Shown: positions 17,596-37,190 of the stretch, piece after piece
Position numbering within the stretch: the stretch's first letter is position 1
Layout: the number at the start of each line of letters is the position of its first letter
Source of the DNA: Rosistilla ulvae
GTDB lineage: Bacteria > Planctomycetota > Planctomycetia > Pirellulales > Pirellulaceae
NCBI RefSeq assembly: GCF_007741475.1
Contig: NZ_CP036261.1
Span: 6,139,798 to 6,203,797 of the forward strand
Direction of reading: 5' to 3'
Length of the DNA: 64,000 bases
Translations under genes and position numbers: made by a program
The notes under the pieces: model-generated
Seen by the model: the letters and a program-made list of their open reading frames with translations, nothing else
Told to the model about the DNA's origin: nothing
The model's database searches: none

Positions 17596-18045
17596 CTAAA
17601 CGGCGTTCTTGGTTTCGATCGAGACGATCTTGTCGACGCGGCGGGCGTGGCGGCCCCCTTCGAATTCGGTTCGCATCCATAACAGGATCAGATCGTCGAT
17701 GTTCCGATCACCGATCAGATCCCCTCCCAGACACAACACGTTCAGGTCGTTGTGTCGTCGCGACAGCTCCACCATCACCTCGTCATAACACGGTGCTGCG
17801 CGGACACCGGAGAACTTATTCGCAGTGATCGCCATCCCGATCCCCGTACCGCAGATCAGGATCCCACGATCAACATCCCCCTGGCTGACCTTTTGAGCAA
17901 CCACGCTGGCAAAGTCGGGGTAGTCGCTGGCGTCGTCGCAGTCGGCCCCTTCATCGAAGACGATGTGGCCGTTGGATTCGAGTGCCTGGATAATTCGAGC
18001 CTTGATGTGAACGCCTCGGTGGTCGCTCGCGATGCTTACTTTCAT
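17596..18045 (-). CDS. rpiB: Ribose-5-phosphate isomerase B
   Basis: A 149-residue enzyme of the RpiB/LacAB family, which interconverts ribose-5-phosphate and ribulose-5-phosphate. The start is M-K-V-S-I-A-S-D-H-R-G, the canonical N-terminus; the frame is open upstream but overlaps the previous gene. Motifs include D-Y-P-D-F-A, G-I-L-I-C-G-T-G-I-G-M-A-I-T-A-N-K and R-x-H-N-D-L-N-V-L-C-L-G-G. The active-site Cys lies in the C-G-T-G-I-G loop. Its ATG overlaps the stop of the TsaC-phosphatase gene by four bases. The order tsaC/Sua5, LMW phosphatase, rpiB matches ywlC-ywlE-ywlF of Bacillus. Confidence 0.93.
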   Translation of the reverse strand: MKVSIASDHRGVHIKARIIQALESNGHIVFDEGADCDDASDYPDFASVVAQKVSQGDVDRGILICGTGIGMAITANKFSGVRAAPCYDEVMVELSRRHNDLNVLCLGGDLIGDRNIDDLILLWMRTEFEGGRHARRVDKIVSIETKNAV

Positions 18046-19226
18046 GCTTTGTCTCCCTCTTCGCCCGATTCTGGGATCGCAAGCCACTCGGGCCCCATGC
18101 TCTCGACCCACTGTGCTAATTCGCGGTCTATTTGGTCGGCGCAAGCCTGGTAGATTTGCACAGGCGAACCGACGGGATCTGAAATATCGCCACCATCTCG
18201 GCGGACAGTAAAGACGCGGTCTTGGGCATTTGGCCACCGCTGCAAGATCGCGTTGCGATGCGAGCGGGTCATCGTCAGGATCAAATCAGCCGATCGAATC
18301 GTCTGTTCGCCAAACGGTTGGCTCTCGTGGCCAGAGATATCGAGCCCCCGTTCGCGCATCACGTCGATCGCTTGGGTGGCTGCCTGATCGCCGGGCATCG
18401 CCGCCAACCCGACCGAACTGACACTCGGAATGATCGCTCCGCTGGGGCTGTTGCCAAAACGTTCGTCGATCCGTTTTTTCAATAAGGCTTCGGCCATCGG
18501 GCTGCGACAGGTATTCCCCGTGCAGACTAACACGATCGACGGTCGTGCATATTGACGAATCGCTGCGGTTTCCACGACGCCCTCTCGTATGATTTTGAAT
18601 TGGTTTCCAACGGCCCGAACAACGGTCGACGGACCACCATATCGGGTGGGTCCATCATCGACAACTAGCGGCACATCGTCGCCGAATTGTTCCACCACAT
18701 CAACGCCTGTACTCGCCGCCCGAACACCGCTGCGGTTTGCACTGCAGATCACAATCGGCCCGGCGCAGTACTTTTGCAGTTGTTCAAACAACCGATGCGC
18801 GACGACGCGCACTCCAATATGTCCCGATTGGCTGACGACAAGTTCGCGGACCGTTTTGGGAAAACAGGAAACAGCGGACCGTTTCAAATCGCATGGCACG
18901 ACCAATGTAACAGGTCCTGGCCAGCAGCGACGAGCAAAGCGAATCGCCAGCGGCGAATCGTGGCACATGTAATCCAAGGCCTCATCAGCGCTTTTCACGG
19001 CGATCGCCAGCGAACATTGTGTCCCAGTCGCCGTTGCCGCATCGTCTCGCTTGCCTTTCAGCTGGCTCATCCGCTGCACCGCATCGGCACACAATACGCT
19101 CGCCGCCAAACCGTAAACAGTTTCGGTGGGCAACGCGATCACTTTTCCCTCGGCAAGCGACTGCACACCAAGGTAAACGATGTCACGTGGATCTTCCGCA
19201 CGCTGCAAATCAATAACCGTTGGCAT
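18042..19226 (-). CDS. Threonylcarbamoyl-AMP synthase (TsaC/Sua5) fused to YwlE-type phosphatase
   Basis: A 394-residue two-domain protein. Residues about 10-220 are YrdC/Sua5-like, making threonylcarbamoyl-AMP for tRNA t6A: P-T-E-T-V-Y-G-L-A (33-41), K-G-K-R, P-G-P-V-T-L-V-V, S-A-N-R-S-G and G-P-S-T-V-V. The region after K-G-K-R carries an odd A-T-A-T-G-T-Q insert where the family usually has a short K-P-L strand. Residues about 228-375 are a low-molecular-weight phosphatase with loop C-T-G-N-T-C-R-S (C235-S242) and D-P-V-G-S as the general-acid region. T239 sits where YwlE has Thr11, the residue reported to select phospho-arginine over phospho-tyrosine. The fusion joins two activities encoded separately in Bacillus (ywlC, ywlE). 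Confidence 0.9.
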   Translation of the reverse strand: MPTVIDLQRAEDPRDIVYLGVQSLAEGKVIALPTETVYGLAASVLCADAVQRMSQLKGKRDDAATATGTQCSLAIAVKSADEALDYMCHDSPLAIRFARRCWPGPVTLVVPCDLKRSAVSCFPKTVRELVVSQSGHIGVRVVAHRLFEQLQKYCAGPIVICSANRSGVRAASTGVDVVEQFGDDVPLVVDDGPTRYGGPSTVVRAVGNQFKIIREGVVETAAIRQYARPSIVLVCTGNTCRSPMAEALLKKRIDERFGNSPSGAIIPSVSSVGLAAMPGDQAATQAIDVMRERGLDISGHESQPFGEQTIRSADLILTMTRSHRNAILQRWPNAQDRVFTVRRDGGDISDPVGSPVQIYQACADQIDRELAQWVESMGPEWLAIPESGEEGDKA

Positions 19227-23243: not shown

Positions 23244-23587
23244 CGGCCATCCGCCGAGCCGGAGAATCTGTACCATTCGACCCCAGCTGTTCAATTCTGC
23301 AACGCGGCTGCAAAGTGCTGCGATTCCCCAATGCTGGAAATCTGGCCAGCATGGGCAAGCTGAGCATGCCCGTAGGTCGAGAATGGGCGATCGGATCGCG
23401 TTCCTTGAGAGATTGGCACAGATTCTGCTTTATCGGAGCCAGTGATGCGACTATTCTGGGAGACGAGGGCACATCGTGCCGGCTCCCCGCCGAAGTGGCC
23501 GAGCCGCGAACGCGTGTGTGACTTAGAGGGCTTCTTGTCCCACCGCGATTCCGCTGGGTGAGGAACATGAGACAACAAGGAAATTCA
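23244..23587. other. Intergenic region upstream of the Gly/Met-repeat protein
   Basis: A 344-base spacer between co-directional genes. No credible gene, RNA or strong hairpin was seen. AAGGAA just before 23588 is the SD of the next gene. Confidence 0.45.
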
Positions 23588-24445
23588 ATGAGCGTACGAA
23601 CAGCCTTTCATTCAACGATCTCTTCCACTGCAGTATTTGGTTTGCTGATCTGTGGCCTGCAACCAGTGATGGGCGTCGAGCGACGCGATGCTGGCGACGA
23701 CAACGTTCGTCAGGTCGAATTGTTTGAAGCGATGAAAAACGGCGACATTGAAGTCAAATTCGTGCCTCGCGATGCAGCGCGTGCAAATTTGATGGTTGAA
23801 AATAAGACGAAACAACCGTTGCACATCCAAATGCCCGATGCATTTGCTGCCGTGCCGATCCAAGCTCAATTTGGCGGCGGAATGGGCGGAATGGGCGGTG
23901 GCGGAATGGGTGGCATGGGCGGCGGCGGAATGGGCGGCATGGGCGGCGGCGGAATGGCTCAAGGCATGGGCGGCGGCATGGGTGGCATGGGCGGCGGCGG
24001 CATGGGTGGCATGGGCGGCATGGGTGGCGGCGGCATGGGTGGCGGCGGTGGATTCATGCGGATCGCTGCGGAAAAGCGACACAAAGTTGCCTTGACCACC
24101 GTCTGCTTGGAACACGGCAAGCCCGATCCCAATCCCAAGATCCCTTACACGATCATTCCTATCGAACAATTCACCAAAGATCCTCACGTCATCGAACTGT
24201 GCACCCACTTGGGCTACGGACGCGTTCCACAAAACACAGCTCAAGCTGCGGCGTGGCACATGATGGACAAGCTCTCCTGGCAAGAACTGGCGCTCAAGAA
24301 TCGCAGCGAATCGGCTTACACCGGCAACACGCCCTTCTTCAACATCGGCGAATTGCGTGCGGCCATGGCTTTGGTCAACTACGTCTCCAAGGACGCTCCA
24401 ATCGCTCAAGTTTCGCTTGCCGACGACTACACCTCGGCCGATTGA
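23588..24445 (+). CDS. Secreted protein with Gly/Met-rich tandem repeat
   Basis: A 285-residue protein. The ATG has AAGGAA about 6 bases upstream and opens a signal peptide (hydrophobic A-V-F-G-L-L-I-C-G-L, cleavage near M-G-V-E). Residues about 35-95 are a compact domain ending P-I-Q-A-Q-F. Residues about 96-155 are a low-complexity block of G-G-M-G-G-M-G-G-G-G units, encoded by near-identical GGCATGGGCGGC repeats. Residues 156-285 form a C-terminal domain that includes A-W-H-M-M-D-K-L-S-W-Q-E-L. The Gly/Met block could be a flexible linker or a soft-metal (copper) binder; neither is shown. No family name can be given with confidence. Confidence 0.75.
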   Translation: MSVRTAFHSTISSTAVFGLLICGLQPVMGVERRDAGDDNVRQVELFEAMKNGDIEVKFVPRDAARANLMVENKTKQPLHIQMPDAFAAVPIQAQFGGGMGGMGGGGMGGMGGGGMGGMGGGGMAQGMGGGMGGMGGGGMGGMGGMGGGGMGGGGGFMRIAAEKRHKVALTTVCLEHGKPDPNPKIPYTIIPIEQFTKDPHVIELCTHLGYGRVPQNTAQAAAWHMMDKLSWQELALKNRSESAYTGNTPFFNIGELRAAMALVNYVSKDAPIAQVSLADDYTSAD

Positions 24446-24979: not shown

Positions 24980-26929
24980 TCAATCGAAGACTCGGTAACG
25001 CATCTCTTTTGAAATCGTCCAATAGACGTTTAAGACGTTTCGATCGGCAATGCGACGTCGGAACTGCATCAGCTTTTCCCCCGCGGGTCCCGTCGACGTT
25101 TTGCCATCTTCCAGAGCCGCCACCATCAACCGGGCGTGCTCCAGCCCCAGCCTTACGTTTTCGAAACGCTCTCGCTGCGCCTCGGTCGCCGATGCCAACA
25201 GCGGCGTCCCACGGGCCAGCACCGCCGCGGCTCCATCCAGCAACGACTGGCTGTAGATCAACGGATAGGCTCGAATTCGTTCGGCGCGTTTCAGCTGAAA
25301 GAACTTCTCATTATTCCCCAACGCGACCGTCCGCGTTTCCCAGCCGTCGTAGTACTCCTTCACGACTTGTTTCATCGGACCGAAGGACTCATAGAATTCG
25401 TCCAACAGGCGATCGACGTCGGCTTGCGTATCCCAAAGCATCCGGGCCAACACGTAATAGGTCGGTCCGGTCGCTGCCCAGTAGCCTTGCAGCGCATCGT
25501 AGTCGGTCGCTCGCAAACCATTGTCGATCTGGAACCGAAGGTCTTCGGCCACTTGCTGGCTGGCGACATAGGGCGCCCCTTCGCCCAGATAGAACAACGA
25601 ATTCGAGCGTAGAAAAACCGTTGATCCCAGTCGCGACCACCCGAACCACTCCTCGGTCGACATCTTGCGGTAGGCTTCCGGTCGCGGGTAGGCGTTGAAT
25701 CCAATGTATCCAATCCAAACGTTCGGTTCGATGTGTTGCAGTTTTGTCGGCGGAGCGCGATAGCGGCCGTAGGCGTACGCCACGAGTCGGGCTTCGGGAT
25801 CGGCCGCTTTGGCGCGGACGGCTAGTTCGTTGAACCAACGCCCATACCGATCCGAAAGACTCTCGGGCAGGACGCGATCGATTTCGGGGCCATCGATCTC
25901 CGAGCCGTCTTCGACTTGGGGCAGCGCGTCGAGTCGCGCGTTGGGGGTGGCGTCCCACGCCCGGCATCGGCTGCAGACGCAAAATCCACCGCTGCCGTCG
26001 TTTTCACAGGCGTTGAGCCACAGCCCGCGAGATCCCTTGGCGGCCGCTTTTTCCAAAGGGTCCAACTGCAGTTCCCACAGCCGCGGATTCGAGACGCACA
26101 TTTTGACGAAATCGGGCTGCTTTGTTTTCCGCGGGCGGCGTTTGCCATCGGGTTGCATCGCAAAAACATCGGGATCCGATCGATGATACGTCTCCCACCA
26201 ATCGGTGAATGCGTGTCCGTAAGACAATCTGAAAGATCGGCCCATTCGCATCCGACGGGTCCAGACGCGTTCGTCTTCGGAGATTTGATCGTATGTCTTG
26301 CCCAGATCCAACCAACGACCGAGGCCCTCCTTTTCGTAGCCAACGCGATGTTTGTCTTGCGCCAACAGACGGATCGATCGGACTTTGATCTGCGGCGTTT
26401 CAACGACATTCAAATCAGAGACTCGAATCGTTTCCCGACGGGGAACGTATCGCCCCGTTTCACCTGGCCAAATCCAACGACAACCGAGTTGGTCTTGCAG
26501 AAAATCATAGACCGCCCAGAGAGTTCCCGTTCGCTGATCGCGAGAATTGCCGCCATCTTCGCCGGCCAAGATCAACGCGTTGGCCGATGTCCGCACGATA
26601 AACGTCTCGGGTTCCAAATGCTTGGTCACGACCCCGTGAACTTTTGACGTGAGGTTGCCTTGTCCGATCAGGATCAAAGTCTGCGAGCTATCCGCTGGCA
26701 GATCACTTTCTTTGACGATCGGCAGCGTCGCTCCCGACATGATGCGGAGATGCTCTTGCAATTCCGCCGCCGCGATCTGCTGCCCTAAAGAGGGGCGACC
26801 GTTGGTCACGATCAAACTGGCCGGACGTCCATCGCGGACGAGAATCAACGACTCCGCAGCCGTCGACAGGTTGGTGAACAAACCAACCGAAAACAGCAGA
26901 ACCAAACCGATAACATCCCGCCCAGCCAT
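24980..26929 (-). CDS. Secreted DUF4838 protein
   Basis: A 649-residue exported protein with a signal peptide (M-A-G-R-D-V then hydrophobic, cleavage near S-T-A-A-E, about 26) and SD GAGAGG upstream. Residues about 30-165 resemble the carbohydrate-hydrolase-associated N-terminal domain seen before alpha-glucuronidase/hexosaminidase-like barrels (A-A-x-E-L-Q-E-H-L, then G-T-L-W-A-V-Y-D-F-L-Q-D). The central part (about 200-480) matches DUF4838: Y-G-H-A-F, W-L-N-A-C-E-N-D-G, C-V-C-S-R-C and Y-A-Y-G-R-Y; D-Y-D-A-L-Q-G-Y-W-A follows. It is probably a glycan-active enzyme abundant in planctomycetes, but substrate and catalytic residues are unproven. It follows the chemosensory genes on the same strand, 52 bases after orf323. 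Confidence 0.82.
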   Translation of the reverse strand: MAGRDVIGLVLLFSVGLFTNLSTAAESLILVRDGRPASLIVTNGRPSLGQQIAAAELQEHLRIMSGATLPIVKESDLPADSSQTLILIGQGNLTSKVHGVVTKHLEPETFIVRTSANALILAGEDGGNSRDQRTGTLWAVYDFLQDQLGCRWIWPGETGRYVPRRETIRVSDLNVVETPQIKVRSIRLLAQDKHRVGYEKEGLGRWLDLGKTYDQISEDERVWTRRMRMGRSFRLSYGHAFTDWWETYHRSDPDVFAMQPDGKRRPRKTKQPDFVKMCVSNPRLWELQLDPLEKAAAKGSRGLWLNACENDGSGGFCVCSRCRAWDATPNARLDALPQVEDGSEIDGPEIDRVLPESLSDRYGRWFNELAVRAKAADPEARLVAYAYGRYRAPPTKLQHIEPNVWIGYIGFNAYPRPEAYRKMSTEEWFGWSRLGSTVFLRSNSLFYLGEGAPYVASQQVAEDLRFQIDNGLRATDYDALQGYWAATGPTYYVLARMLWDTQADVDRLLDEFYESFGPMKQVVKEYYDGWETRTVALGNNEKFFQLKRAERIRAYPLIYSQSLLDGAAAVLARGTPLLASATEAQRERFENVRLGLEHARLMVAALEDGKTSTGPAGEKLMQFRRRIADRNVLNVYWTISKEMRYRVFD

Positions 26930-26981: not shown

Positions 26982-27953
26982 TCACTCCGCTGGCGAAACC
27001 GACGCCGCAGGTTTCTCCGAGGCTGAATAGTAGCCGAACGAGATCTCAAAGTCGACATATTGAGGTGGTTCTTCAGAATCGTCCTTGCTGGCAACCGAAA
27101 CATCGATCGCCCGGGTCTGCCCAGCGGTCAGCTCACCGAATTCGTAGACCTTCCTGTGGATCGTCTTCTGCCAAGCTCGCAGGGCATCGTAATCGTACGC
27201 TTCATTTGGATCGTGTGGTTGGTCCGACGTACGCACGATCAATTGCCCACGATGCAACGTCAGGGCGTTGGGATTGGTGATTTCAAAGTGCAACTGCGCC
27301 CGGTCGTTCAACGATTTCGGTCGCGAACGGATCACGTTCACGGCGCCCACCTGTGTCGGCACTTGGCCAAGGAATTCGCGATCGAGATCCAGCACGTGGG
27401 TGCGAAGGTCCCAGAAAGGGCGATCGGGATCACCTGGATTTCCCATCAACCGCTGGCAGAGCGACTGTTGAAAATCGCAGCGTTCTTGAAGCTTTGCATT
27501 TTGTGCAGCCAGTTGTGAAACCTGTGATTCCAACACGCTGCGGTTGATGAATCCCAAACTGGCAGCGATGATCGACATCCCCAACGCTCCGACGGCCGTC
27601 GCTTGGATCCAGAGGGGAACCGCGACAGATCCCACCGCAGCGATCGGGGTCGGCACAACCGCTTCCGACGCAACCGGTTCGGGCGTCGCATTGGCTGGGG
27701 CGATATGGTCGGGGGGCGAATCGGGAACGACGCCGGCAGGCACATCACCATGTTCGGGCGATGCCGGCTCTGCCTGGATCGTCGGTTCGTCACTACCGAA
27801 GGCGAATTCGGGAGTCCAGGGCTTCTCCTCTTCGGCAACGGCGTCCGACGGTGATTCGATACCCTCGGTCTCATCGAGGACGGCGACGCTTGAAACCGCG
27901 CTGGGTTCTTTGGTACCGGCGTCGAGCAACGCTTGAATCTCTTCAGCATTCAT
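26982..27953 (-). CDS. Membrane protein with FliM-like N-terminal peptide, end of che operon
   Basis: A 323-residue single-pass membrane protein 18 bases downstream of cheR. Residues 1-13 read M-N-A-E-E-I-Q-A-L-L-D-A-G, closely resembling the FliM/FliY N-terminal peptide (L-S-Q-D-E-I-D-A-L-L-N-G) that binds phosphorylated CheY. Residues about 14-105 are acidic, Pro/Ala/Glu-rich and look disordered. A transmembrane helix lies near 110-135, followed by a short coiled coil (about 140-165, S-Q-L-A-A-Q-N-A-K-L-Q) and a beta-rich domain (about 190-315). The predicted topology is N-in/C-out. The remainder matches no family I know. A CheY-regulated output protein is inference from the peptide and the operon position. 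Confidence 0.75.
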   Translation of the reverse strand: MNAEEIQALLDAGTKEPSAVSSVAVLDETEGIESPSDAVAEEEKPWTPEFAFGSDEPTIQAEPASPEHGDVPAGVVPDSPPDHIAPANATPEPVASEAVVPTPIAAVGSVAVPLWIQATAVGALGMSIIAASLGFINRSVLESQVSQLAAQNAKLQERCDFQQSLCQRLMGNPGDPDRPFWDLRTHVLDLDREFLGQVPTQVGAVNVIRSRPKSLNDRAQLHFEITNPNALTLHRGQLIVRTSDQPHDPNEAYDYDALRAWQKTIHRKVYEFGELTAGQTRAIDVSVASKDDSEEPPQYVDFEISFGYYSASEKPAASVSPAE

Positions 27954-27971
27954 GAATATCGAATATCCTTA

Positions 27972-28829
27972 CTACCCCAAACCACGGTTCTGGGGGATGC
28001 GTTTTTTGGGGCGGTAAACTGTCGCTCTGCAATGTTGTTCCATCGAAAACCGTTCGCTCATATCGGCGTGATATTCTTGTGCGCCAATAAACAGCAGGCC
28101 ATCGTCGACCAATTGATCCGCAATTCGACTGAACAGATCTCTTCGGTTGCAATCGGAAAAATAGATTGCCAAGTTTCGGCAGAACACGATATCGAACAGG
28201 CCGACGGTGTTAAATGGTTGCAAAAAATTACGTTCTTCAAATCGAATCATCGACCGCAGTTTATCCTGCACGCGCCACTGGCTTCCTTCTTTGCGGAAAT
28301 AACGGTGCAGTTGCGCTGGCGAGAGCCCGCGAGAGATCTCGTGTTCGGAATATACGCCTTGTTTTGCCTGCGCGATCGCTGTCGACGAAATATCGCTGGC
28401 CAGAATTTGGATATCCCAGCGATCGACGTCGGGCAGCAGTTCGCGAATCATGATCGCCAAGCTGTAAGGTTCTTGTCCACTGCTGCAAGCCGCAGACCAC
28501 AACCGCAACCGCCGGGGAAACCGAGTCGTCGAGCGAGCATCGATAATCTCGGGCAACAATTTGTGTTGCAATGCCTGAAACGGGCTCCCGTCGCGAAAAA
28601 ACAGTGTTTCACGTGTCGTGATCCGTTCGACAATCTGTTGTTGCAAGCCGCGATCATCGCGTGCACAACGGGCAAGTTCCGCATAACTGGAATACGATGC
28701 CTCTCGCATCAATTCTCCGAATCGATGTTCCAGCAAATATAGCTTACGATTATCGACCTGAATGCCACATAATTGTTCGATCACATCCATGATGTCGACG
28801 ATGTCGGTTGTCGGTTCCAACGTCTTCAT
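27972..28829 (-). CDS. cheR: Chemotaxis protein methyltransferase CheR
   Basis: A 285-residue SAM-dependent methyltransferase that methylates glutamates of chemoreceptors. The start is M-K-T-L-E-P, whose ATG overlaps the cheB stop by four bases; the longer frame overlaps cheB and is rejected. An N-terminal helical domain (1-75) ends in R-I-T-T-R-E-T-L-F-F-R-D. The SAM-binding loop is L-W-S-A-A-C-S-S-G-Q-E-P-Y-S, then A-S-D-I-S, F-E-E-R-N-F and D-I-V-F-C-R-N with the family Asn/Arg residues. Length is normal and no C-terminal TPR is present. The substrate is presumably the receptor encoded at 29991-32390. Confidence 0.95.
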   Translation of the reverse strand: MKTLEPTTDIVDIMDVIEQLCGIQVDNRKLYLLEHRFGELMREASYSSYAELARCARDDRGLQQQIVERITTRETLFFRDGSPFQALQHKLLPEIIDARSTTRFPRRLRLWSAACSSGQEPYSLAIMIRELLPDVDRWDIQILASDISSTAIAQAKQGVYSEHEISRGLSPAQLHRYFRKEGSQWRVQDKLRSMIRFEERNFLQPFNTVGLFDIVFCRNLAIYFSDCNRRDLFSRIADQLVDDGLLFIGAQEYHADMSERFSMEQHCRATVYRPKKRIPQNRGLG

Positions 28830-29953
28830 GATCGACCTGCCAATACGGGACGTCGTGTAATTGCAGTCAGCTTGGATGCGACATCTTTTAATCCAACGAC
28901 CTCGTCGACCAACCCGGCTTCCGCAACGGCACAAGGCATTCCGTAGACAACGCAGGAGGCTGCATCTTGAGCCAGGATCTGGGCGCCTTGTTCTCGCATC
29001 GCCCGCGCTCCCTCGGTCCCATCGTCTCCCATGCCTGTCATCACAAGCCCCATCGCCCGGTTGCCAAACTGGGCGGCGGCGGAACGGAACAAGACATTGA
29101 CCGATGGCCGACAACTGCGTTCTGGCGGGTCATCGTTGACCCGCAATGTGATACCGGCCGCCATCCGTTGTAGTGTCATTTGAAATCCGCCTGGGGCAAT
29201 CGCGATCTGACCAGCTCGCAAGCTGTCCCCCGATGCCGCTTCGAAAACGTGCAACGGTGAAATTCGATCGAGCTCTTCGGCCAACGAACGAGTAAACAAT
29301 GGTGGCATATGTTGCACGATTGCGATCGGCACCGAGAAGTCGCTGGGCAATCGCGAGACGACCGTCCGCAAAGCTTGCGGTCCGCCAGTCGATATTCCAA
29401 TCACGACGATCTGCGGTGCTGCTGCCGACCGGCGTTGACCGACCGACGCGTTGCGTGTGGGGGTCGAGGTCGGCGGCAGGCCGGGCGACCACGCGGGGCG
29501 TCTGGCATTGGCCGCCGGACGGGGAATCGAATGCCGTTTTGCGTTTTGTGCAATCGCATGAAAACGTTCCGACAAATGCTCGCGAAGCTTTTTGCGGTTG
29601 GAATCCAGATCCATGCCTTGCGGCTTCAAGACAAAGTCAAACGCCCCCGATTCGATCGCTTGAATCGTAAGGCTCGCCGACTGCAGCGTCAGCGAGCTGA
29701 GCATGATGACTTCGGTATGGGGCGATCGTTGCTTGATCTGCTTGAGCACCTCAAGACCGTTCATGCCGGGCATCTCCACGTCCAACGTAACGACGTCGGG
29801 ACGCATGCTGGAAATCGCTTGCAAAGCGGCAACGCCGTCGTCCGCTTGCCCCACAACCATATAGCCTGGGAGCCCTTGAAGCGTACCGACAACAAACCGA
29901 CGGTAGACTGGCGAATCGTCGACGATCAATATTTTTCGTAGTGCTGCGGACAC
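28826..29953 (-). CDS. cheB: Chemotaxis methylesterase/deamidase CheB
   Basis: A 375-residue response regulator and methylesterase. I place the start at a GTG with AAAGGTG a few bases upstream; no ATG fits. Residues 5-125 are a receiver with D12/D13 acid pair, phospho-acceptor D58 (L-D-V-E-M-P-G) and K-P-Q at the Lys site. After a linker the esterase domain begins V-I-G-I-S-T-G-G-P (nucleophile Ser, about 187), then Q-H-M-P-P-x-F-T (His, about 213) and T-G-M-G-D-D-G (Asp, about 310), giving a full catalytic triad. It sits between mcp (37 bases upstream) and cheR (four-base overlap). CheA-dependent phosphorylation is the expected control. Confidence 0.94.
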   Translation of the reverse strand: MSAALRKILIVDDSPVYRRFVVGTLQGLPGYMVVGQADDGVAALQAISSMRPDVVTLDVEMPGMNGLEVLKQIKQRSPHTEVIMLSSLTLQSASLTIQAIESGAFDFVLKPQGMDLDSNRKKLREHLSERFHAIAQNAKRHSIPRPAANARRPAWSPGLPPTSTPTRNASVGQRRSAAAPQIVVIGISTGGPQALRTVVSRLPSDFSVPIAIVQHMPPLFTRSLAEELDRISPLHVFEAASGDSLRAGQIAIAPGGFQMTLQRMAAGITLRVNDDPPERSCRPSVNVLFRSAAAQFGNRAMGLVMTGMGDDGTEGARAMREQGAQILAQDAASCVVYGMPCAVAEAGLVDEVVGLKDVASKLTAITRRPVLAGRS

Positions 29954-29990: not shown

Positions 29991-32390
29991 CTAACACGCC
30001 AACGTGGAGTGGTTTTGAGAGTCCGAAGCTTCTCCTGTCTTAAACTGTCCAACCAATTTGGAAAGCTGGTTCGCCAAGTCGCTGAATTCCTCCCCCGCCC
30101 GACGCGTGTTGACGGCGCTGTCGGACGTTTGCCGCAACACGCTGTCGACGCTGGTGATGTTGTGAGTAATCTCCTGACTTGCCGTCGCCGATTCCTGTAC
30201 GCTTCGTGCAACCGCGGCGGCCGACTGTGCGGTCTGCGACACGTTGTCGGAGATCTGCTTGGTCGCCATGCTCTGCTGTTCGACCGCCGACGCGATCGTC
30301 AACGACGCTTGATTGACGTTATTGATGACTTCGCTGATTTCGCGAATCGCCTTGACCGCATCCCCTGTCGAACCCTGAATCCCTTCGATCCGATGGCGAA
30401 TGTCATCGGTCGCCGATGCGGTTTGTTTGGCAAGCTCTTTGACCTCGGTGGCAACCACAGCAAATCCCTTGCCCGCTTCGCCCGCCCGAGCCGCTTCGAT
30501 CGTGGCGTTTAGAGCCAACAGGTTGGTCTGTTCGGCAATGTCTTGGATCACCTCGATCACTTTGCCAATCTCATCGGCGGCAAGCCCCAATTCGGAAATC
30601 TTGTCGTTGGAGAGTTCCACCAAATGCGCCGCTTGTCCAGCGACCGTTGCCGACCGCTCGGCGCTCTGCGCGACTTCCACGATCGATTGGTTCATCTCAT
30701 TGACCGCTACCGACACCGTTTTAACATTCCCCGACACCTCCTCGGTCGATCTCGCCATGTTCCCCATGTTCACCGACAACTCTTCTGCCGCGGCGGCCAC
30801 AGTGCTCGATTGAGATGTTGCCTTGCATGCCCCTTCGGACAATTGACTCGACGTCGCCGAGAGTCCGACCGAGGCTTCGTTGAGCGTCGTTGCATTGATC
30901 GTGACGCTGCGGATGATCGATTGCAATTTGGCCGCAAAGACGTTGAACCAGTGCGCCAATTCTCCCAATTCGTCGCGGCGGCTAGCGTCGAGCCGTTTGG
31001 TCAAATCGCCCTCCCCTTCGGCGATGTCACGCAACATTGCAACCGAACGGTTGATCGGAGCGACCAGCCGATAGGAAAGCACAAACGCAAATGCCGTTAT
31101 GCAAGCCGCAGCCAGTCCCGCCAGGCCAAAACTCCAGGAGAACATCTGCCGTTTCGCGTTGGCCGACAACAGCGTCATCCCATCGGCTGCTGCAAAGGCT
31201 TCGTCCCGACTCACCTCCGCAACGACTGCCCATCGCATTCCCAAAACATCGACGGGAGCGTATGCCGACAGCACCCCATCACCAAGATATCCGGTGATCT
31301 CCCGCGCCCCCGTTTCGCCAGCAAGCGCCGCGCGGACCGCCTCGGTCTTCACAGCTCCTTTGGCGGGATATCGAAAGCTCGACACAATATTGTGATTTTG
31401 CGGGTCGCGACGCGTATCGCTTCGCAGGACGTGCTCGGGGCCAACAAGATACGTTTCGCATGTCTTTTCCATCCCCGTCCCCATCGTCATCACATTGTTG
31501 ATCCGATCGATTGGCATCTGGAAAATGGCCACTCCAATCTTGGTGTCACCATCAAAAATCGGCGACGCGATGAAACTGGCTGGGGCCTCGTATGAGGGCG
31601 TGTACTGTTTAAAGTCGACGACGACAAACTCATCCGCACTTGGCAGCGCGTTGGCTTGTTGAAAGACCTTGCCGATGTTGGATTTGGCAAAAGGGCCGTC
31701 GATCAACGAGGTCGAGAAGTCGAGTTCTTTATAGGCCGAATAGACGATATCGCCCGTTTGGGAATCACATAGAAACACATCGTAGTATCCAAATTTCTCC
31801 AGATACCCGCGAACGATCGGATGAAGCTTGGCGTGCTGCTCGGAATAGAAAGTCCCGTCGGAGGCTGAATTCAGCTGATGTTTGGATCCCAGCGGGTGTT
31901 CGTTGGCTTGGATGTAAGCGTATTGCAACGCCACCGACGCCGGCTTCAATTGAGCTAAGATCCGATCTGCATGAGGATCTGTACCATCGTTCTGTTTTCG
32001 GTACTCGGCGTCAAATTGACGCTTGTAATACTCTGCCAATTCGCGGCGAAGATCTTCTATCTGTTGCATGTCATATCCGCAATCGGCCGCGTAGCGTCGA
32101 AAGGGCTCACGGAAGTCACGCATCGCATCGACAACGATCTGATCTTCGGAAAACTTCAGCACTTGATCGCGGATCGAATCGAAGTAATCAACGATTTGCT
32201 GCTTCTTGATCTCACGCAACGAGATCACTTTCTCCGACGATTTCTGCTTCAAGTCAGCAATCGCAATCTCTTCCATTTTTGCTAAGTTGCTGCTCGACAT
32301 TGAATAGATCATGCCGCAAGCTGCCAACATCGGCACCATTCCACAACACAAGATGCTAGCAGTCAGACGAGTTCGAATACGCATTCTCAT
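29991..32390 (-). CDS. Methyl-accepting chemotaxis protein
   Basis: A 799-residue transmembrane chemoreceptor. TM1 is at about 8-30 and TM2 at about 418-440, enclosing a large extracytoplasmic sensor of about 385 residues with the size and pattern of a double-Cache domain (W-x-x-Y-like and [11 protein letters not shown] motifs near 390-400). A HAMP domain follows (P-I-N-R-S, then D-E-L-G-E-L). The signalling hairpin tip is near residue 630 with E-Q-T-N-L-L-A-L-N and A-A-R-A-G-E-A-G. There is no C-terminal N-W-E-T-F-like tether for CheR/CheB. An internal ATG at residue 3 is an equally possible start. The ligand is unknown. Confidence 0.94.
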
Positions 32391-32515: not shown

Positions 32516-32971
32516 TTACTGTGAATTTGCCAACGCTTGATCGATATCTAGCAAAATCACCACGTCGTCGGTTAGCGTATGGATCCCATGGATCATGCGC
32601 CCGTCGACGGAATTCACGTTGGCTGGCGGTACCGACATCTCTTCTTGTGATACAGCTAGAATGTCCGATACCCGATCGACGACAAGTCCCAGCAACTGGC
32701 CGCCGGATTGAACGATCATATTCTTGGAATCGGCGCTGACCTGTGTGTTCGGCAAGCCCAGCAAGATTCCCAGATCCAATAGCGGGACGACTTCGCCACG
32801 CAGATTCACAACCCCCAGCACATGCCCGGGGGCGTGTGGCACGTGAGTAATTTCCGATAAGCGATTGATTTCGCGTACCCGATCGATTGCGATCCCCAAC
32901 AGGACATCACTGACGTAAAAGGTTGCGAACTGCTGATCTTGCACACACTGTTTTTCTATCGTCTTGTTCAT
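32516..32971 (-). CDS. cheW: Chemotaxis coupling protein CheW
   Basis: A 151-residue adaptor linking the receptor to CheA. It shows the SH3-like CheW fold pattern: F-A-T-F-Y-V-S-D-V-L-L-G-I, R-E-I-N-R-L, G-V-V-N-L-R-G-E-V-V-P-L-L-D-L and G-L-V-V-D-R-V-S-D-I. Its ATG overlaps the cheA stop by four bases (ATGA), implying coupled translation and roughly matched amounts of the two partners. A 125-base gap separates it from mcp downstream; no terminator was seen there. Confidence 0.94.
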   Translation of the reverse strand: MNKTIEKQCVQDQQFATFYVSDVLLGIAIDRVREINRLSEITHVPHAPGHVLGVVNLRGEVVPLLDLGILLGLPNTQVSADSKNMIVQSGGQLLGLVVDRVSDILAVSQEEMSVPPANVNSVDGRMIHGIHTLTDDVVILLDIDQALANSQ

Positions 32972-35769
32972 ACCAACACCTCTTGATTGTGTTCTTCGTT
33001 ACTACTGGACATTGCCTTTTCACTCAACGTACGGATCGCACGGATCAGGTTTTCTCGGTCGAGCTTCACTTGATAATCGTCGATGCCCGCGCGTCGCCCG
33101 TTGCTGATATCCGTGTCCGAAGCCAACGACGTCAACGCGATCACCGGCAAGCGTTGCAGCTCCGGATCTGCTTTAATCCGGCGACAGAATTCCAATCCGT
33201 TCATACGCGGCATCTCGATATCGGTGACCACGAGATCAAACGCGGTCTTGTCTTGAATCAAGGTCTCCCAGGCCTCTTGGCCGTCTTCAAAGTCCGAGAC
33301 GTTGAAGCCTGCGTCGCGCAAGAAGTTCGAAACCTGTTTGCGGAAGAAGGCCGAATCTTCAGCCAAACACAGGTGCAAGTCGGGTTTCACATGCTTCTTC
33401 GGCTCACCCTTCAAATCGGGTAGCGCGGTGTGAGTGATGTCATGCAGATTCAACACTCGGATGGTGCGGCCTTCCATCGCCAACGATCCGGCGATTCCGC
33501 GTTCGCTGTGGACATCGGTATCGACGTCCAATGGAATGGCCCGGATGTCTTCGATGTGCGATGCCAACATTCCGACCTCGCGTCCCGAGACACTGTAGAC
33601 AATCACAAACAACGGCCCCGAACGATCCGCCGGTGCCGCCGTGACGCACATGTCCAATTGAATCAACGGCATCGCCACCCCCCGGGTGTGCAACATCTCC
33701 CGATGTCCTACACATTCGATTTCGCTGGCGGCGATCGCTTCGATTCGCGAGATCATTCCCATCGGAATCGCGAAACTCTCGTGATCCCGATTGTTGAACA
33801 ACAGCACCGACTGGACCTCATCGCTGCCTCGCGGCGCGTCGTTCTTCTCGCTTTCGGCATTGGCCCGCTCGGTCACCGCGCGGAGATTGGTGTAGTTGGC
33901 GATCCCCGAAACATCGACGATTAACGCGACGCGGCCATCGCCGAGAATCGTCGCTCCCGAGAGACAGGGACAATCGTTTAATTGAGCCCCGACCGGTTTG
34001 ACGACGATCTCTTCGGAATCGCACAAACCGTCGACAAGAATTCCGTAGCATTGCTGCCCGGTTTCGACGACGATCACATTCTGTGCCGCCGCTCCCGGTT
34101 CGGAGAGTTCTTGCACGATCGTGCGACCGCTAGAAACACCGCCAAAAACTTCATTCAATCGAACGACGGGTAACAAGGCATCGCGGAGTCGCAATACATC
34201 GGCCCCCTTCACACGGGCAAATCTTTGCTGTGCATCCTCGGGGCGAACCCGCACCAGTTCATTGATATTCACTTGAGGAATCGCTAACCGATCGGGCCCC
34301 GATCGAACGATCAACGATGGGATGATCGCCAACGTCAGCGGCAACGTGATCTGGATACAGGTTCCCGTCCCGAGAGTCGTAAAGATCTCGACACTTCCAC
34401 CAAGCTTTTCGATATTGGTACGGACGACGTCCATCCCTACGCCCCGTCCGCTGACATCGCTGATCTGTTCAGCGGTCGAAAACCCGGGCAGAAAGATCAA
34501 CCGAGCCGCTTCGCGGTCGCTCATCTGTTGCGCTTGATCGGGCGTGATCAACCCCTTCTCCAACGCTTTATTGCGAACCACGTCGGCATCGATCCCGCGA
34601 CCGTCATCTTGGATCTCGATCACCACCTTGCCCGATTGTGGCTGAGCCCGCAGGTAGACGTTCCCATATTCGGGCTTCCCCGCAGCGACGCGCTGCGCGG
34701 GGGTCTCCATGCCGTGATCGACCGAGTTGCGAATCAGATGGGTCAACGGATCGCTGATCGCTTCGATAATCGTCTTATCGACTTCGACTTCGCTTCCTTC
34801 GATCGATAGATTGATTCGCTTCTCCAGCTTCGCCGCCAGATCCCGAACGACCCGCGAGAACTTATTAAAGACATTCCCAATCGGTTGCATCCGCGTCTTC
34901 ATAATCGCGTCTTGCATTTCCGTGGTCACTTGATTGATCCGTGCGGCGACCGATTCGAAGCCGTTTTTCTCTCGCGCCGCCAACGCCTGCAGCAACTGGT
35001 TGCGGCTGAGCACCAATTCACCCGCCAAATTCATCAAATGGTCGACGGTATCCACCGAAACACGAATGCTCGATTCGCCGCTGGACGACTTGGGACCAGA
35101 CGGTTTCCGGCTCTCCTGCGTTTCGACGGACGGTTGTCGTGCGGCAACCTGGTCGCCAACCAATGGGCTCGACGCGGTTGACGTCACCTCCGCCGACTCG
35201 GCGAGCTCGCGTGCTCGTTTGGCTTCCGCAACCGCGAGATCCAAGGCTTCGGCAAGCGGAAGATCTTCGCGAATCTCGACATCGATCGGGACCGCGGTGG
35301 CGGCGGGGACTGCCGCTGGTGGTGTCGCCTCAACAGCGGCCTGCACCGGTACGACGGCAGGTTCGGGAGCATCGCCAGCCACCCCCGAGGCGATACACTT
35401 TTCCAATTCAACCAAGTGATTGGAGATGTCGACCTCATTGGATGCCCCGACGTCGGCGACCATCGCCTGCAGCGTATCGGATGCGGAAAGCAAGCCATCG
35501 ACAATGGTCGATGTGGGGACCAGTTTTTCCTCACGCATCAGATTGAGGACGTTTTCCAGAGAGTGCGCCAGTTCGTTGATCCGCGGCAGCCCCAAGAACC
35601 CGGCGGCTCCTTTGATCGAATGGACGCCGCGGAAAACGGTATTCACCAAATCGACGTCGACATCCGCCCCCGCGGCTTCGATCGTCAGTAACTGGCTTTC
35701 GATATCGGACAGATGTTCGAGTGATTCAACAACAAACTCATCAAGTATTTCTTGGTCTTCGTTTGACAC
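32968..35769 (-). CDS. cheA: Hybrid chemotaxis kinase CheA with two CheW-like domains and a receiver
   Basis: A 933-residue kinase, first gene of the operon. The start is a GTG with GGAGG seven bases upstream. The Hpt domain (1-110) carries phospho-acceptor H50 in V-H-S-I-K-G. A Pro/Ala linker with no obvious P2 domain follows. Dimerisation and ATPase domains (about 235-480) show N-S-V-D-H-G, D-D-G-R-G-I and G-R-G-V-G-M-D-V. A first CheW-like domain is at about 485-620, and a second (V-L-L-F-N-N-R-D-H-E-S-F-A-I-P onward) at about 650-790. The receiver (about 800-925) has D850 in T-D-I-E-M-P. The receiver may serve as phosphate sink or feedback site, as in FrzE-type hybrids. Confidence 0.94.
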   Translation of the reverse strand: MSNEDQEILDEFVVESLEHLSDIESQLLTIEAAGADVDVDLVNTVFRGVHSIKGAAGFLGLPRINELAHSLENVLNLMREEKLVPTSTIVDGLLSASDTLQAMVADVGASNEVDISNHLVELEKCIASGVAGDAPEPAVVPVQAAVEATPPAAVPAATAVPIDVEIREDLPLAEALDLAVAEAKRARELAESAEVTSTASSPLVGDQVAARQPSVETQESRKPSGPKSSSGESSIRVSVDTVDHLMNLAGELVLSRNQLLQALAAREKNGFESVAARINQVTTEMQDAIMKTRMQPIGNVFNKFSRVVRDLAAKLEKRINLSIEGSEVEVDKTIIEAISDPLTHLIRNSVDHGMETPAQRVAAGKPEYGNVYLRAQPQSGKVVIEIQDDGRGIDADVVRNKALEKGLITPDQAQQMSDREAARLIFLPGFSTAEQISDVSGRGVGMDVVRTNIEKLGGSVEIFTTLGTGTCIQITLPLTLAIIPSLIVRSGPDRLAIPQVNINELVRVRPEDAQQRFARVKGADVLRLRDALLPVVRLNEVFGGVSSGRTIVQELSEPGAAAQNVIVVETGQQCYGILVDGLCDSEEIVVKPVGAQLNDCPCLSGATILGDGRVALIVDVSGIANYTNLRAVTERANAESEKNDAPRGSDEVQSVLLFNNRDHESFAIPMGMISRIEAIAASEIECVGHREMLHTRGVAMPLIQLDMCVTAAPADRSGPLFVIVYSVSGREVGMLASHIEDIRAIPLDVDTDVHSERGIAGSLAMEGRTIRVLNLHDITHTALPDLKGEPKKHVKPDLHLCLAEDSAFFRKQVSNFLRDAGFNVSDFEDGQEAWETLIQDKTAFDLVVTDIEMPRMNGLEFCRRIKADPELQRLPVIALTSLASDTDISNGRRAGIDDYQVKLDRENLIRAIRTLSEKAMSSSNEEHNQEVLV

Positions 35770-36228: not shown

Positions 36229-36603
36229 ATGGACCAAAAGGTTCTATTAGCGGATGACTCGGGCGTCATGCGCAAGATCATATTGCGAGCGTTGAATGCT
36301 GCCGGCGTTACCGATGTTATCGAAGCGGCCGATGGGTCCCAAGCGTGGGCCTCCTTTCAATCGACCCAATTCGACATGGTTCTGACCGATTGGAACATGC
36401 CGATGATGACCGGTTTGGAGCTGTTGAAGAACATTCGCCAAGCGGGCTCGACGATTCCGGTGATCATGATCACGACCGAATCCGAACGGGGCCGGGTGAT
36501 CGAAGCGATCCAAGCAGGCGTATCGGACTTTCTGCCCAAGCCGTTTGAAAACGAACTGCTGCAAGAGAAGCTCATCAAGCATCTCAGTGCGATCGCCTCA
36601 TAG
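36229..36603 (+). CDS. cheY: Response regulator CheY
   Basis: A 124-residue single-domain receiver. The ATG with AAAAGGA upstream was chosen over a longer frame. Conserved residues are D9/D10 (A-D-D-S), phospho-acceptor D54 (L-T-D-W-N-M-P), the Thr of I-T-T-E and Lys of L-P-K-P. The signature D-W-N-M-P-x-M-x-G is typical of true CheY rather than transcriptional regulators. It is transcribed away from cheA and followed 86 bases later by cheX. It is the likely diffusible output of CheA; no flagellar gene is in the window to show its target. Confidence 0.94.
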   Translation: MDQKVLLADDSGVMRKIILRALNAAGVTDVIEAADGSQAWASFQSTQFDMVLTDWNMPMMTGLELLKNIRQAGSTIPVIMITTESERGRVIEAIQAGVSDFLPKPFENELLQEKLIKHLSAIAS

Positions 36604-36689
36604 GCGAGCCACGTCAAGACACCGTGTCATCGATCGATAGACATCGATCCTCGACCCCATTCCAACAAAAACTTCTAGGGGCACATCCG

Positions 36690-37190
36690 ATGCTGACTTC
36701 CGAAAATCAAGCTTTCCAAAAAGCCGTCGAAGAGATTCTTGCCAGCTGTCTTAGCTGCGACGCCACTTTAAAAGAAATCGGCGAGACGACACCGGCCGAC
36801 CGCATTCACGAAATCAAGGGGATCATCGGCATCTCGGGGGCGATCTGCGGGACCGCCGCGCTCAGCATCACCCGCGACTTTGCTTACAAGGCGACCGGCG
36901 CGCTGCTAGGCGAAACCCCGACGGAACTCAACTCCGACGTCGTCGATGCTGTCGGCGAGATCGTCAACATGATCGCTGGTCGGGCTCGTGTCCTATTGGG
37001 AAATGAAGCGACCAACATGTCTTTGCCGTCGGTCATCCTAGGGCAGTGCGAGATCGCCTTCGGTTCAGAGAACCACGGCACCTGTTTGCGATTCGAAACC
37101 CCCTGGGGGCCTGTTTCGATGGAATTGGTCCTGAAACAACAATCGAATTCTCCAATCCCCAACGTAACGCCGGTCGCCATACTTGCCTAG
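36690..37190 (+). CDS. cheX: CheX-like CheY-P phosphatase
   Basis: A 166-residue CheC/CheX/FliY-family protein expected to dephosphorylate CheY. The start ATG is preceded by CTAGGGG; the longer frame upstream is unsupported. The diagnostic helix is D-V-V-D-A-V-G-E-I-V-N-M-I-A-G, holding the E-x-x-N catalytic pair. A second such helix is absent, which fits CheX rather than CheC. G-I-I-G-I-S-G and C-L-R-F-E-T-P-W-G are in the expected beta-sheet positions. It lies directly downstream of cheY on the same strand. Confidence 0.88.
   Translation: MLTSENQAFQKAVEEILASCLSCDATLKEIGETTPADRIHEIKGIIGISGAICGTAALSITRDFAYKATGALLGETPTELNSDVVDAVGEIVNMIAGRARVLLGNEATNMSLPSVILGQCEIAFGSENHGTCLRFETPWGPVSMELVLKQQSNSPIPNVTPVAILA

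Follow-up and report, generated by a model that had tools for sequence, protein, structure and literature searches.

Peptides that dock CheY occur in the flagellar switch and in CheZ, a second protein that holds CheY by a FliM-like helix; CheZ is a soluble phosphatase and carries this helix at its C-terminus. For the switch proteins FliM and FliY, one report identifies the sequence EIDALL as the site for phosphorylated CheY (CheY-P) and states that the N-terminus of FliM raises the number of CheY-P bound; it quotes affinities of 27 uM for an N-terminal peptide of FliM and 39 nM for FliM 1-249 (PMC9126983). Among the open-licence papers listed, no title or abstract opening dealt with a membrane protein that carries a FliM-like peptide. 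For the outer part of the protein described here, the closest known systems include the SadB/YajI lipoproteins and the MATH/TRAF domains (SPOP, USP7). A second report describes the fold of SadB and locates this protein outside the inner membrane (PMC3953254).

We analyzed a stretch of 64,000 nucleotides from Rosistilla ulvae (the window). On its minus strand, Pfam identified cheA with a C-terminal receiver domain (32968..35769), cheW (32516..32971), an mcp gene with HAMP and MCPsignal domains (29991..32390), cheB with receiver and methylesterase domains (28826..29935), and cheR (27972..28829; Pfam CheR, E = 6.9e-57). These genes are followed by gene X (26982..27953, minus strand), which encodes a single-pass membrane protein of 323 residues beginning with MNAEEIQALLDAG. 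Divergent from the operon and upstream of it, on the plus strand, are cheY (36229..36603), the candidate partner of the X peptide, and cheX of the CheY-P phosphatase family (36684..37190; Pfam CheX, E = 2.5e-19). The open reading frame, strand, and coordinates of X were checked and are correct, and together with the Pfam neighbors they agree with the original prediction, which had placed the gene at the end of cheA-cheW-mcp-cheB-cheR. Receiver domains are found on the C-terminus of CheA and on CheB, besides the neighboring CheY.

The start of X is secure, because none of the five codons of open frame that precede M1 (GYSIF-M) is a start codon and because the 18-bp gap between cheR and X contains AAGGA (27966..27970), a ribosome-binding-like sequence that is also found upstream of X in the two sister genomes, G001 and G002. 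X is the last che gene, yet a same-strand gene (24980-26929, minus strand) begins 52 bases past it in the window and could be co-transcribed with it in R. ulvae; from a reading of the translation, its product looks like a secreted protein of glycosidase type. No open reading frame of at least 120 codons lies that close behind X on its strand in the sister loci. Around the operon, neither promoter-like sites (6 vs 6.2 in shuffles) nor terminator-like sites (13 vs 14.5) were in excess. Two further genes were noted in the window: the product of 23558-24445 has long internal GGMGGGGM repeats and, in each sister locus, a counterpart that lies downstream of X, and that of 18042-19226 reads, in translation, as a Sua5/YwlC-like N-terminal part fused to a low-molecular-weight phosphatase-like C-terminal part (CTGNTCRSPMAEALL).

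The X protein has the layout that had been proposed, with one hydrophobic segment and a predicted beta-rich domain. Residues 1-12 (MNAEEIQALLDA; 27918..27953) resemble the N-terminal helix of FliM/FliY and are followed by a linker rich in acidic residues, proline, and alanine (residues 13-112; 27618..27917), which is predicted to be disordered, each ten-residue block of the model averaging a pLDDT under 40. The whole tail is strongly acidic (22 D/E, 2 K/R). Kyte-Doolittle analysis placed a transmembrane segment at about residues 116-136 (27546..27608), with best 19-residue means of 1.87 in X, 1.83 in G001, and 1.54 in G002, where the segment is weak. Heptad conservation and a helix in the model suggest a coiled coil of four heptads at about residues 137-170 (27444..27545): of the core positions L141, V145, L148, N152, L155, C159, Q162, C166, and L169, 8 of 9 are invariant, compared with 7 of 20 other positions. 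A beta-sandwich of eight strands, SadB/MATH-like in structure comparison, was modeled at about residues 180-308 (27030..27416; mean pLDDT 59.6), and its best structural match was SadB, which is trimeric. The full-length fold was poor (mean pLDDT 45.1); a Foldseek search with it also returned SadB first (E = 3.5e-4, TM 0.24). X had no Pfam match at E 0.1 and nothing in the PDB sequence search at E 10, and no credible match was obtained across the Pfam, NCBIfam, and PDB sequence searches. At E 1, DUF3251 was detected in none of the three genomes of the genus, while 3 of 14 control genomes matched, and hmmscan of the C-terminal part of X gave no DUF3251 at E 10.

The N-terminal peptide is conserved in sequence. 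In the three copies of X, residues 1-12, with the consensus MNA(E/D)EIQALLDA, share 34 of 36 pairwise residues, compared with 77 of 223 for linker residues 29-112; this conservation rests on three copies of one genus, which is a shallow sample. The alignment of the N-terminal tail has 138 columns before the transmembrane segment, of which 31 are invariant, 11 of them among the first 12. When the start methionine was excluded, 0 of 100,000 shuffles put as many invariant columns into this first stretch, and 1 of 20,000 reached such a count in any stretch of equal length. A homologue that kept the rest of the protein and had lost the peptide would have spoken against the original prediction; the peptide is in 3 of 3 copies, few and from a single genus. 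Codons differed in 10 of the 34 identical pairs of the peptide and in 50 of the 77 of the linker. Thus, the start of X is conserved as protein, perhaps slightly as DNA too, and a constraint at the DNA or RNA level may explain part of the conservation, because the codons were identical in 24 of 34 conserved pairs of the peptide vs 27 of 77 in the linker.

A second conserved segment, SVAVL[DN]E (residues 21-28; 27870..27893), is identical in 20 of 24 pairwise residues, and the intervening residues 13-20 in only 5 of 24. It is nearly as conserved as the peptide, and mimicry of FliM offers no explanation for it; we know of no counterpart of this segment in FliM. The model of X contains a helix at residues 3-13 with a pLDDT of about 55 and, in what is a poor model, a short strand at residues 25-27. 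The hydrophobic moment of the helix was 0.40, below those of FliM (0.64) and FliY (0.57).

Residues 5-10 of X, EIQALL, match 5 of the 6 letters of EIDALL in all three copies, with Q in place of D. The L-[SDN]-Q ahead of the core was not found in X, which begins M-N-A and has no upstream start, whereas most FliMs sampled in the family and phylum carry L-x-Q; since the start of X is secure, the L-S-Q of FliM is truly absent. We built two profiles. For the family profile, 29 of 30 FliM loci supplied peptides, and the broad FliM/FliY profile used these family peptides, those of 26 of 30 loci of the phylum, and 7 further peptides (43 distinct). Both favor the chosen motif, because the peptides were selected by a motif expression and loci not fitting it were dropped, and the pseudocount weights, set by hand, were unequal between the two. 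The profiles were run against the N-termini of 653 genes, a greedy set of open reading frames that includes spurious ones, taken from 863,797 bases, which comprise the window and 40 stretches and amount to about 12 percent of the genome.

On the broad profile, X ranked 1st of the 653 when the most upstream starts were used and 2nd when inner starts to +60 were included. Its score was 14.2 bits, compared with 23.8-33.8 for the profile's own peptides and 28.8 for the resident FliM; it is below the range of known peptides, 9.6 bits under the weakest peptide of the profile. On the family profile, X ranked only 85th of 653, because the FliMs of the family mostly read LSQxxVExLL (LSQNQVEDLI in the resident FliM) while X has no L-x-Q. 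The X peptide is nearer to the textbook EIDALL than to the peptide of the resident FliM. The likeness to FliM/FliY proposed in the original prediction is borne out by 5 of 6 core letters and by the rank of 1 or 2, and falls short in the missing L-x-Q and in a score below those of true peptides.

To place this score, 5 of 245,588 13-mers in the sampled proteins scored at least as high as X, X included (2.0e-5 per 13-mer). By arithmetic, chance would supply about 1.5 such N-termini to a genome with about 5,600 genes, and about 0.002 to a set of eight che genes; the likeness is notable only through its che-operon context. A DNA pattern for E-I-x-A-(L/F)-(L/F) had 21 occurrences in the genome, and by a reading of the frames X alone has it where a gene-sized frame begins. 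The sequence data suggest that the FliM/FliY likeness of X exceeds chance in this context but is incomplete, and its interest is the combination of place in the operon, position at residue 1, and conservation.

The best relatives of the CheY encoded at 36229-36603 among solved proteins were those that their depositors had named CheY (best E = 4.3e-27), as the original prediction had it. In five alignments, the residues that we take to be the active-site acidic residues, Thr, and Lys were kept, with an aromatic residue at the position that would correspond to Tyr106. A search of the genome with FliMN_C found three places, none of them X, and both FliM and FliN-type domains were present. CheY therefore has a regular flagellar target. 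The resident FliM (L002 1456-2532, minus strand) starts with MSDEILSQNQVEDLIRAME, and its docking core Q-V-E-D-L-I departs from EIDALL, as do those of other FliMs of the family. A lone FliMN_C protein of 119 residues was also seen (L003 1381-1740, plus strand); by reading, its neighbors look unrelated to flagella. Since the flagellar FliM keeps its own docking peptide, the non-flagellar output that had been suggested for X is possible but unsupported: the genome has FliM and FliN-type domains, and we found nothing showing a second output. The idea that relatives have this che system without flagella was dropped, as FliMN_C domains were found in 8 of 9 genomes checked.

X was present in all three genomes of the genus, directly after cheR in each, although identity among the three proteins is only about 55-62 percent, the value varying with the program. 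In a search of 199 genomes of the family, the matches were the same three genomes only. A profile of the C-terminal part gave nine hits in 241 family genomes at E 0.1, consisting of the three genus copies and six partial matches (E 0.005-0.084, none spanning more than 79 of the 190 positions), of which the protein of G014 was looked at individually; no convincing copy of X was found in the other 238 genomes. A full-length profile gave five hits in 396 genomes of the order at E 0.01, the three genus copies and proteins of G014 and G286. The latter two were rejected as remote homologues of X, being weak partial matches that, by reading, belong to proteins of another build. Among 15 stretches taken for che clusters of other genera, cheR was found in nine, two of those within the genus; of the remaining seven, L052 stops 182 bases past cheR, and in the six testable clusters something other than X stands next to cheR (0/6).

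Searches starting from the peptide gave the same picture. When contigs were scanned with two peptide patterns, 67 stretches matched, with no relative among them. The compact start M-x-x-(D/E)-E-I-x-A-(L/F)-(L/F)-D-A occurred in 57 stretches, and by a reading of their first residues none of the frames resembled the X tail; these pattern scans may omit records near the R. ulvae genome itself. Among 1,907 open reading frames in 44 loci (43 around che genes), peptide scores above 9.5 were given by the two sister-species copies of X and by two weak matches, which look spurious and were rejected. X is thus, as found here, specific to one genus.

Our tentative first choice is that X serves the che system as a membrane accessory peculiar to this genus, its tail docking CheY-P or another receiver domain. 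X would cross the inner membrane once, probably as a trimer, with a cytoplasmic tail and with the coiled coil and MATH/SadB-like sandwich outside; we infer the extracytoplasmic location of the beta domain. The first 12 residues would fold into an amphipathic helix with the role of the FliM/FliY docking peptide, binding as FliM does in the groove between helices alpha4 and alpha5 of CheY. At the membrane, this helix would retain CheY-P or else a receiver domain, that of CheA or that of CheB, with the disordered linker as a tether and with avidity from the several copies in an oligomer. CheY-P would most likely be concentrated or buffered there as a consequence, close to the receptor array or the motor. 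Docking of CheY itself is plausible but somewhat doubtful, being weakened by the missing L-x-Q.

The main rival, which we regard as possible but rather doubtful, is that the tail is a bipartite dock for another che component, in which the helix at residues 3-13 and the strand-like segment at 21-28 bind the receiver domain of CheA or CheB, CheW, CheX, or CheR. X would then anchor or organize the array and take no output from CheY, and its FliM likeness would be that of any short N-capped amphipathic helix. Two conserved segments around a variable spacer (residues 13-20, 5/24; residues 21-28, 20/24), the short strand of the poor model, the absence of L-x-Q, and the receiver domains of CheA and CheB in the same operon are consistent with such a dock. 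Furthermore, helix starts like that of X are common, since the compact pattern was met in 57 stretches of other genomes, mostly within longer frames. However, the E-I-x-A-L-L register, the N-cap-type residue, and the position at the extreme N-terminus of a tether match a docking peptide.

It is less probable, indeed unlikely, that the resemblance is fortuitous and that X is a SadB-like envelope protein, a chaperone or adhesin helper, at the end of the che genes, with an N-terminus conserved for other causes, such as membrane targeting or translation start. The chance expectation of about 1.5 such N-termini per genome, the SadB-like fold, the absence of X from the six testable clusters of other genera, and the share of conserved codons identical as DNA (24/34 vs 27/77) would fit this explanation. 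In contrast, X keeps the same place in three genomes despite protein identities of only about 55-62 percent, and codons differ at 10 of the 34 conserved residues. We consider it quite improbable that X is a transmembrane receptor for CheY-P, a trimer with three tails that signals through the coiled coil to the MATH-like outer domain; if so, the chemotaxis pathway would directly control an event at the cell envelope besides the flagellum.

The charges flanking the membrane segment, R138 after it in 3 of 3 copies and K on its N-side in 2 of 3, give an ambiguous positive-inside signal. An opposite topology, in which the tail lies outside, the coiled coil and sandwich are cytoplasmic, and the peptide is unable to meet CheY, is very improbable, since X has no N-terminal signal peptide by reading and tails of >100 residues are rarely exported without one, although the acidic tail (22 D/E, 2 K/R) and R138 would fit it by the positive-inside rule. 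The K in two copies also speaks against this topology, as does the location of the closest fold, SadB, outside the inner membrane (PMC3953254).

Among known systems, X may follow the plan of SadB and YajI (PDB 4c47, 2jwy), a membrane anchor, a coiled coil, and an eight-strand MATH-like sandwich; the best structural match was obtained with a low-confidence model of X (mean pLDDT 59.6). Unlike these lipoproteins, with which it shares 8-13 percent identity, X has a transmembrane helix and a long N-terminal tail in place of a lipid anchor: no lipobox was found near its N-terminus by reading, and the hydrophobic segment comes only past the tail of >100 residues. The CheZ peptide scored 19.5 on the broad profile vs 14.2 for X, and unlike CheZ, X has no phosphatase domain recognized by Pfam. 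If a membrane protein with an outer domain has acquired the docking peptide, CheY-P would have a target at the membrane in addition to the motor, and the peptide would be a movable module to search for in other proteins. As in FliM/FliY, a predicted short amphipathic helix stands at the extreme N-terminus of X with the E-I-x-A-L-L spacing, the tail and linker are laid out as in FliM, and the organism has a CheY close to solved CheYs. X differs from them in the absence of L-x-Q, in Q for D, and in a membrane anchor and outer part instead of the FliM/FliMN_C switch domain: Pfam matched nothing in X at E 0.1, and a FliM-type match was absent even at E 10.
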